A stretch of 5,187 nt of DNA from Bacteroidales bacterium (GTDB lineage Bacteria > Bacteroidota > Bacteroidia > Bacteroidales > GCA-2711565): assembly GCA_029938505.1 (NCBI GenBank), contig JAOZUV010000176.1, positions 1 to 5,187 on the forward strand. Reading direction: 5' to 3'. Every line of letters begins with the position of its first letter. Within the stretch, counting starts at the first letter, position 1. The notes under the pieces are model-generated. The model was not told where the DNA came from. It made no database searches and was given only the letters and a program-made list of their open reading frames with translations. The translations under genes were made by a program, and so were the position numbers. This document shows positions 3,246 through 5,187 of the stretch, piece by piece.

Positions 3246-3377
3246 ATGCTTAGTAAAGGAAATAAAAGAAAGGCACACAAACGTCACGGGTTTCTTGCTC
3301 GTATGAAAACAGTTGGTGGAGCAAAAGTTATCAGTCGTCGTCGTTCTAAGGGACGTAAGAATCTTTCTGTTGCATAA
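3246..3377 (+). CDS. rpmH: 50S ribosomal protein bL34
   Basis: The 43-residue, strongly basic protein matches bL34 of the large ribosomal subunit, which is normally 44-46 residues. The core [16 protein letters not shown] (7-22) and [13 protein letters not shown] (30-42) are the family hallmarks. The usual GR before the second basic block is GA here, and the N-terminal KRTYQPS is replaced by the short LSKGN. ATG 3246 is the only start, because a stop codon lies five codons upstream in frame. There is no Shine-Dalgarno sequence; the leader reads AAATAAATCT. It heads the conserved rpmH-rnpA-yidC-jag order, with only 2 nt to rnpA. The dnaA gene, often its neighbour, is not in the window. Confidence 0.97.
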
Positions 3378-3379
3378 TT

Positions 3380-3721
3380 ATGTTAAACAAAAGAAATCGA
3401 ATTTCTGATAAAAAAATAATCCAAAACCTGTTTGATAAAGGTAATCTTTATAGAGACAAATATTTTGTGTTCAAATATATAAATTCTGATTCAAAAGACT
3501 CGCAATTTGCGGTTATTGTTAGTAAAAAAATTTCTAAGAAAGCCGTAAAAAGAAATAAGATACGAAGACAAATTTTTGAAGCAATCAGACTAAATATTGA
3601 TATGGCAAACAATGTAACTGCAATAGTAATTTCTAAAGCAAGAATACAAGACGCAAAATATCAAGAAATTAATGATTCGATTGTTCAATTTTTTAATCAA
3701 ATAAAAAAATATGCAAAATAA
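3380..3721 (+). CDS. rnpA: ribonuclease P protein component
   Basis: The 113-residue basic protein is the protein subunit of RNase P, which with the RNase P RNA removes 5' leaders from pre-tRNAs. The length is typical (110-120). The family signature is clear: ISKKAVKRNKIRRQIFEAIR (51-70) contains the RNR-type helix whose R58, N59, R62 and R63 contact the RNA. The N-terminal NRISDKKIIQNLFDKG (6-21) and YFVFKY (28-33) form the start of the alpha-beta fold, and TAIVISKARI (80-89) is the late core strand. ATG 3380 follows the rpmH stop by 2 nt, suggesting translational coupling. Its last codons overlap ATG 3711, the probable original yidC start, by 11 nt. The RNase P RNA gene is not in the window. 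Confidence 0.96.
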   Translation: MLNKRNRISDKKIIQNLFDKGNLYRDKYFVFKYINSDSKDSQFAVIVSKKISKKAVKRNKIRRQIFEAIRLNIDMANNVTAIVISKARIQDAKYQEINDSIVQFFNQIKKYAK

Positions 3722-3764
3722 ATTTTTTCGTCCAATATTATTCGCATAAAGTTTTTTAATCATT
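3711..3764 (+). pseudogene. yidC: natural yidC N-terminus interrupted by TAA
   Basis: ATG 3711 is in frame with the rest of yidC and overlaps the rnpA end by 11 nt, a usual coupling. It encodes MQNKFFRPILFA, then TAA (3747-3749), then SFLIIL running into the known frame. Ignoring the stop, this is a typical YidC first membrane segment with basic flank, and the full protein would be 386 residues. A TTA (Leu) to TAA change explains it without a frameshift. Sequencing error, true nonsense mutation and readthrough cannot be separated here. Confidence 0.75.
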
Positions 3765-4871
3765 TTGCAATTCATAAACGGAAGGCAAAAAGATAATAAA
3801 TCGCAAGATGATATTGTTCTTTCAACGAAATCAAAATTAGTAATTGGAAAAGAAGTAGAAGTTGAAATCACAAACAACACAGATTCACCAATTATAATTG
3901 AAAATAACTGTCCAAACAATCCACTATCTATAGAGCAATATCAAAATGGTGAGTGGATAGAAAAATCAGTATCTATTAATGAAGAAAAATGTAATAAAGA
4001 TGATATAATTATTAATAATGGTAAAACTGAAAAAATTAAATACGGAGCATGGAATAATGAATTATTTGAAGCAACAGGAACATACAAAGTAAGCCTAAAA
4101 ACAAATATAAACGAAACAGAAAAAGAATACAGCACACAAGTAAAAATAGAAGAAGCATCTGGAATAAGAAAATTAGGAAGAACATTGTTTTATGAGCCAA
4201 TTTTTAATGGTTTAATCTTTATAGTATCCATAGTACCTGATCATGATTTAGGTCTAGCAATAATACTACTAACATTAATAATTAAATTATTACTATTAGC
4301 ACCAAATCACAAAGCGCTAAAAGCACAAAAGAAAATGAAAAATATCCAACCTCAATTGGATGCACTTAAAATTAAATATAAAAAAGATCCACAACGCCTT
4401 ACGCAAGAAACAATGGCAATATGGAAAAAGAACAAAGTAAGCCCAATGGGTAGTTGTTTACCAATGATTATCCAATTCCCTATCCTTATCTCACTATTCT
4501 ATGTAATAAAGGGTGGAATGATAAGTATTAATACAGATTTATTATATTCATCATTACAAGGTTTTGATACAACAACCATAAATACAGTTTTCTTAGGATT
4601 TTTAGATCTTACAAAAGCAAATAAAATTGTTTTACCAATCCTTATCGGAGGAATGCAATTCTTTCAAATGAAACTAACACTAGGGAAAAACCAACCAGTA
4701 ATAAAAGATGACAAAAATCCAATGGCTCACATGGGTAAAATGATGCAATATGTACTACCAGTAATGATCGCATTCTTCACAGCCACCATGCCAGCAGGAG
4801 TTGGACTATACTGGGGAACATCAACACTATTCGGAATCGGACAACAGTTCTTTGTAAATAAATCTAAATAA
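3765..4871 (+). CDS. yidC: membrane protein insertase YidC/Oxa1/Alb3
   Basis: YidC inserts and folds proteins in the cytoplasmic membrane, alone or with SecYEG. The open stretch begins at TTG 3765, giving 368 residues, but this is probably not the natural start (ATG 3711, interrupted at 3747). Residues 20-130 form a small external beta-rich, Ig-like domain (VEVEITNNTDSPIII, later TGTYKVSL) with two Cys (C49, C76), replacing the much larger periplasmic domain of Gram-negative YidC. The insertase core follows: LFYEPIFNGLIFIVSIVP (141-158), GLAIILLTLIIKLLLLAP (163-180), the cytoplasmic helical loop KAQKKMKNIQPQLDALKIKY (186-205), MGSCLPMIIQFPILISLFYV (228-247), VLPILIGGMQFF (289-300) and YVLPVMIAFFTATMPAGVGLYW (329-350). 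The groove Arg of the TLIxR motif is Lys here (K174). If translation starts at TTG, the first membrane segment is lost. Confidence 0.95.
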   Translation: MQFINGRQKDNKSQDDIVLSTKSKLVIGKEVEVEITNNTDSPIIIENNCPNNPLSIEQYQNGEWIEKSVSINEEKCNKDDIIINNGKTEKIKYGAWNNELFEATGTYKVSLKTNINETEKEYSTQVKIEEASGIRKLGRTLFYEPIFNGLIFIVSIVPDHDLGLAIILLTLIIKLLLLAPNHKALKAQKKMKNIQPQLDALKIKYKKDPQRLTQETMAIWKKNKVSPMGSCLPMIIQFPILISLFYVIKGGMISINTDLLYSSLQGFDTTTINTVFLGFLDLTKANKIVLPILIGGMQFFQMKLTLGKNQPVIKDDKNPMAHMGKMMQYVLPVMIAFFTATMPAGVGLYWGTSTLFGIGQQFFVNKSK

Positions 4872-4899
4872 GATCTACATGTCATCCTAGTGTACTAAC

Positions 4900-4929
4900 C
4901 TGTCATCCTCGCGAAGGCGGGGATCCATA
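4900..4929 (+). repeat. REP-like palindromic element, copy 2
   Basis: This is the exact reverse complement of 424-453 over 30 nt. Stem 4905-4912/4917-4924 (ATCCTCGC, loop GAAG, GCGGGGAT) forms in the yidC mRNA about 35 nt after its stop codon. No T-run follows, so it would more likely stabilise the mRNA end or slow polymerase than end transcription cleanly. Confidence 0.85.
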
Positions 4930-5011: not shown

Positions 5012-5060
5012 TGTAATCCTCGCGTATACAAGAATCTATATATAATAGGATACAATAATT
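5012..5060 (+). repeat. degenerate direct copy of 4901-4949
   Basis: Aligned without gaps to 4901-4949, 39 of 49 positions match by eye. Most differences fall in the GC hairpin (GAAGGCGGGG has become TATACAAGAA), while the TGTxATCCTCGCG head and the tail with AATAGGATACA are kept. The offset is 111 nt. The stem can no longer form, so this is a decayed copy, and the repeat unit is longer than the REP core. Confidence 0.75.
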
Positions 5061-5128: not shown

Positions 5129-5187
5129 ATGGAACTATTAATAAAAGAAACACTTGAAAAACTATTAGATGTTATGAAAGTATCATA
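5129..5187 (+). CDS. jag: Jag/KhpB RNA-binding protein, N-terminus only
   Basis: Only 19 codons lie before the right edge: MELLIKETLEKLLDVMKVS. Both position after yidC and sequence (IKETLEKLLDxMxV pattern) fit the Jag-N domain of Jag/KhpB (SpoIIIJ-associated protein), a cytoplasmic RNA-binding protein that continues with KH and R3H domains and partners KhpA. Those domains lie outside the window, so the call rests on this fragment and gene order. The start ATG 5129 has no Shine-Dalgarno sequence; its leader AATAATCT resembles that of rpmH. Confidence 0.75.
   Translation, partial: MELLIKETLEKLLDVMKVS

Follow-up and report, generated by a model that had tools for sequence, protein, structure and literature searches.

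The DNA analysed here (the window, 5,187 nucleotides in length) carries genes for ribosomal protein L34, the RNase P protein and a membrane protein insertase, followed by the beginning of a further gene that is cut by the end of the window and that we take to be jag (Table 1). This order, rpmH-rnpA-yidC-jag, resembles that of Peregrinibacteria-type relatives. The first-pass annotation had described a TAA within the membrane anchor of yidC and an overlap between the start of this gene and the rnpA stop, and both are present: the yidC ATG at 3711 overlaps the stop at 3719-3721, and translation from 3711 reads MQNKFFRPILFA, then the TAA at 3747-3749, then SFLIILQFINGRQ and onwards. The frame comprises 386 codons before its final stop, the internal TAA (written as X) being counted among them, and after the interruption it stays open, with no second stop in the rest of the frame, down to the TAA at 4869-4871.

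Table 1. Features of the yidC locus in the window.
Feature	Position	Strand	Basis and remarks
rpmH (ribosomal protein L34)	3246..3377	+	Pfam PF00468, NCBIfam TIGR01030; ends in TAA
rnpA (RNase P protein)	3380..3721	+	PF00825, TIGR00188; ends in TAA, overlaps the yidC ATG
yidC frame	3711..4871	+	Translation; PF02096 core 3.3e-50; 117 Met-start relatives align
In-frame TAA, codon 13 of yidC	3747..3749	+	Within the N-terminal membrane anchor
TTG, first in-frame ATG/GTG/TTG past the TAA	3765..3767	+	Codon 19; 368-aa product without the anchor
TTG, codon 159	4185..4187	+	Next possible yidC start; insertase core only, 228 codons
Start of jag-like gene, cut by the window end	5129..5187	+	MELLIKETLEKLLDVMKVS; first 19 codons

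Elsewhere in the window there is neither a tRNA, nor an Rfam RNA family at gathering scores, nor a second yidC. At E 0.001, neither Pfam nor NCBIfam matches an open reading frame of 145 aa (1766-2203) that has a hydrophobic stretch at its N-terminus. An intergenic repeat family is also present: a 30-base sequence at 424-453 recurs, exact but inverted, at 4900-4929 after an interval of 4446 bases, and a direct copy of the stretch that begins at 4901, 80% identical, lies at 5012 (5012-5060).

The readable part of the yidC product (3765-4871, 368 aa) scores 170.7 bits against PF02096 (cutoff 35) and 173.8 against TIGR03592 (cutoff 84.3), the 60KD_IMP core domain thus lying above its curated score. 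By domain the product is a member of the YidC/Oxa1 family, with a predicted insertase function. The N-terminal anchor does not stand in one open frame as it does in the sister proteins, being broken by the TAA at codon 13, and the residues on either side of the break match those of the sisters.

A protein search returned 1734 hits, the best 120 of which were compared; the first is the window itself, leaving 119 relatives. The next three matches are 80, 79 and 71-72% identical (387, 388 and 390 aa), the 119 relatives cover 96-100% of the readable part, and the names on the listed hits are Patescibacteria or Candidatus Peregrinibacteria, with one Candidatus Pacearchaeota. The window gene aligns with these proteins without a frameshift, and 20 of 23 anchor residues are identical to the sister protein P0002. 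Nearly all of the best relatives (117/119) start with Met, measure 380-403 aa and have an N-terminal anchor that aligns both before and after the stop; the first residue of the remaining two (P0095 and P0096) is a Leu that falls inside the anchor or past it, and these are probably partial proteins truncated at contig ends. At the column of the stop the 119 relatives have Leu (104), Ala (7), Ile (3), Val (3), Thr (1) or a gap (1). Because 117 relatives continue upstream through the anchor, and those listed cover 96-100% of the readable part, the two halves belong to one gene and are not a chance juxtaposition, as had been proposed from the codons flanking the TAA. The window gene is therefore like the YidC of Patescibacteria and Peregrinibacteria (PF02096, TIGR03592) in its core, its length, its place after rpmH-rnpA and the anchor residues that flank the stop, and differs from it in the TAA at codon 13, which occurs in the window and in none of the relatives examined.

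At its C-terminus (4863-4874) the window protein ends SK-TAA, the next codon being GAT, and 19 aligned relatives end SKD (12), SKI (5), SKN (1) or MKD (1). The loss of a last codon was considered as an oddity of this gene and rejected, since three of the 17 order genomes (L034, L036, L037) likewise lack the last residue (D, I, N or E), which marks this as a variable end.

Whole genomes were also searched with P0002 as query, in samples of the order (n = 18), the class and the phylum. The order sampled is that of G361, the closest genome of the phylum sample; the class sample, likewise that of G361, overlaps the order sample. A YidC match occurs in 17 of the 18 genomes of the order (G387 has none), as a single match in each, with frames of 380-413 aa and no internal stop in any of the 17. 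In all 17 loci rnpA precedes yidC, and rpmH lies before yidC in 16, the locus L030 starting too late to show it. The overlap noted in the window recurs in the order: the rnpA match reaches residue 113 with an offset to the yidC ATG equal to that of the window in 8 of the 17 loci, L034 has an overlap with a different offset, and in the other 8 the rnpA match stops short of residue 113, leaving the overlap unread. Downstream of yidC, the longest open reading frame starts with, or reaches within its first 30 residues, a M(E/D)L(L/V)IKETLE-like stretch in 14 of the 17 loci; it starts otherwise in L003, and L023 and L034 have none of 100 aa.

Matches were found in 112 of the 117 genomes of the class sample, where the internal stops listed are TGA only (26 genomes), and in 360 of the 379 genomes of the phylum sample. 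Among the phylum matches listed, three places with one TAA inside the YidC match were considered as precedents and rejected, the TAA preceding the first Met of a short YidC in all three. A scan of genome_contigs gave a single distant locus (L001, 36%), viral_contigs gave no match, and among plasmid records there were 56 matches, none of which reached 60% identity or 80% coverage of the query. A relative sharing the stop would show as a protein short at its start and would thus appear in the best 120 of the 1734 hits. The conservation of the stop among relatives that programmed read-through would predict is not seen: the stop is absent from the 117 anchor-bearing relatives and from 17/17 matched genomes of the order, P0095 and P0096 being uninformative on this point.

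The earlier observation that all complete genes here end in TAA holds for the six complete frames taken as genes in the window (6/6). In L34 the profile is matched to its final position (44/44), which places the TAA at the end of the family; in RnpA, PF00825 spans residues 2-108 of 113, to position 108 of the 109 of the profile; and in L34, RnpA and YidC alike no more than five residues separate the end of the family profile from the terminal TAA. Because six complete frames end in it, three of them at the end of the family, TAA is a working stop here, and a general reassignment of this codon, already judged unlikely at first pass, is not supported in the window, where one in-frame TAA at a conserved sense position was found among six frames and not several genes with such codons. 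TGA ends none of the six frames and sits inside none. In the class sample TGA lies inside the yidC frame in 26 of 112 matched genomes, 1 to 25 times each, which presumably reflects the TGA-recoded lineages of the class, of the Gracilibacteria/Absconditabacteria type. Such genomes resemble the window in having stop codons inside yidC frames and differ from it in that theirs are TGA, with more than one per match in 23 of the 26, whereas the window has one TAA.

Amino-acid change was compared between the window and a sister by a two-branch count with P0004 as outgroup, repeated with P0005, P0006 and P0009 (six comparisons). With P0004, the anchor has 1 change on the window branch v 2 on that of P0002, the external domain 16 v 15 and the core 9 v 8; for the window and P0003 the corresponding figures are 1 v 2, 15 v 15 and 15 v 6. 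The other three outgroups give 1-2 v 0-1 in the anchor (tiny numbers), 8-12 v 8-14 in the external domain and 3-10 v 5-9 in the core, including 10 v 5 in the core against P0003 with P0005 as outgroup. Among columns whose conservation in the other proteins is 95% or more, the window departs at 1/17 in the external domain and 2/82 in the core, and P0002 to P0007 depart at 0/17 each and at 0-3 of 81-82, respectively. A simpler count of changes unique to the window in the external domain (14, versus 5 in P0002, 5 in P0003 and 19 in P0004) was set aside in favor of the two-branch figures, because in this domain P0002 and P0003 resemble one another more closely than either resembles the window. Taken together, the counts suggest no consistent excess of change over the sisters, with some of them leaning toward faster change in the window, and the gene would accordingly have been maintained as in the sisters up to, or almost up to, the present day. 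Neither the relaxed constraint nor the further lesions typical of a pseudogene were found, although a very recent lesion would not show in this way.

We consider it probable that the internal TAA is a one-base consensus error, arising in sequencing or assembly, in a single short contig, and that the true gene is intact. The organism would then have an ordinary YidC, in which an N-terminal membrane anchor and an external domain precede the conserved insertase core, and the TAA would reflect one wrong consensus base in a yidC that is in truth uninterrupted. An error is favored because the stop occurs in no relative examined, because the gene shows no consistent decay and because TAA ends the other genes here; YidC is, moreover, essential in well-studied bacteria. 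Of the single-base changes possible in the codons of the window, about 5% (631/11808) yield a stop, so that an isolated error like this one calls for no particular cause when many contigs are scanned. The protein cluster of the window YidC has one member, on one contig equal in length to the window, and no second assembly backs the base; hence no independent copy can decide the matter. The contig appears to come from a metagenome-type assembly, and the base is most likely wrong rather than newly mutated. Against an error stand the other five complete frames, which are open in a contig that is not visibly poor (only L34 and RnpA were checked against family ends), and the counts that lean toward more rapid change in the window: 15 v 6 and 10 v 5 in the core, the tiny 1-2 v 0-1 in the anchor, and the one departure at a conserved column of the external domain, where the six other proteins tested show none. 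The base may be real.

Ranked second, and a good deal less probable, is a genuine nonsense variant that arose very recently in the population sampled, carried by a minor or dying strain or entering the consensus of a mixture, in which yidC would be impaired. One base change suffices to produce it, and the lack of consistent decay is what would be expected of a new lesion; on the other hand, losing YidC should kill the cell or come close to it, the window has no second yidC, and, because the 17 matched genomes of the order have one match apiece, a spare copy is not expected. Of the three options raised at first pass (a wrong base, a downstream start, or read-through or suppression), the comparison favors the wrong base or its biological twin, a very recent mutation; an anchorless product from a downstream start is poorly supported, and read-through finds no direct support.

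A stop that is real and tolerated is improbable. A restart of translation at TTG 3765 would yield a protein with no anchor, and one at TTG 4185 a protein limited to the core, like the short YidC of other Patescibacteria; both codons are in frame, and the next candidate, the first in-frame ATG past the stop (4335, codon 209), sits inside the core. The anchorless insertase suggested at first pass for TTG 3765 fares poorly. At this codon the 119 relatives have F, W, L, V or Y, with one gap, and no Met-start relative begins there; more generally, no Met-start relative listed starts its YidC after the stop without an anchor, P0095 and P0096 looking cut. The product is also without a hydrophobic N-terminus: its best 17-residue Kyte-Doolittle mean in the first 45 residues is 0.71; the value rises to 1.88 when the anchor is included (with 0 assigned to the stop) and is 2.09-2.42 in five relatives tested. 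As for TTG 4185, YidC of the Patescibacteria comes in two sizes, long with the external domain (open frames of about 380-480 aa) and core-only (about 230-340 aa), as seen in L039, L040, L041 and many rows of the phylum sample. The core begins a few residues past the first Met in L039-L041. The TTG 4185 product would span about the same part and resemble this natural short YidC, which leaves a small chance for a tolerated truncation; in the short forms, however, a stop of their own lies upstream and a Met directly precedes the core, whereas the external domain is conserved and still encoded in the window. This domain changes about as it does in the sisters (16 v 15, 15 v 15), a conservation that a long-standing core-only product would not need, and long frames are found in all 17 matched genomes of the order. 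Least probable of all is read-through of the TAA, its decoding by a suppressor tRNA or a recoded genome, since, although the frame is conserved on both sides of the TAA and stops inside yidC frames exist in the class, the latter are TGA and not TAA, six frames here end in TAA (in three cases only a few residues from the end of the family), the window has no tRNA and no relative was seen with a stop at this place.

The isolated stop in yidC is thus most likely an error or, failing that, a mutation of very recent origin, rather than a new mechanism. If the base is wrong, as is likely, the case carries caution only: a lone stop in a normally essential gene of one short contig needs a check of the reads first. 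There is a slim chance that the stop is both real and fixed, in which case the lineage would have dropped its YidC anchor, with an internal restart giving a working core-only insertase, and a switch from the long to the short form would have been caught just after it happened; the finding would then bear on the interconversion of long and short YidC in bacteria with small genomes.
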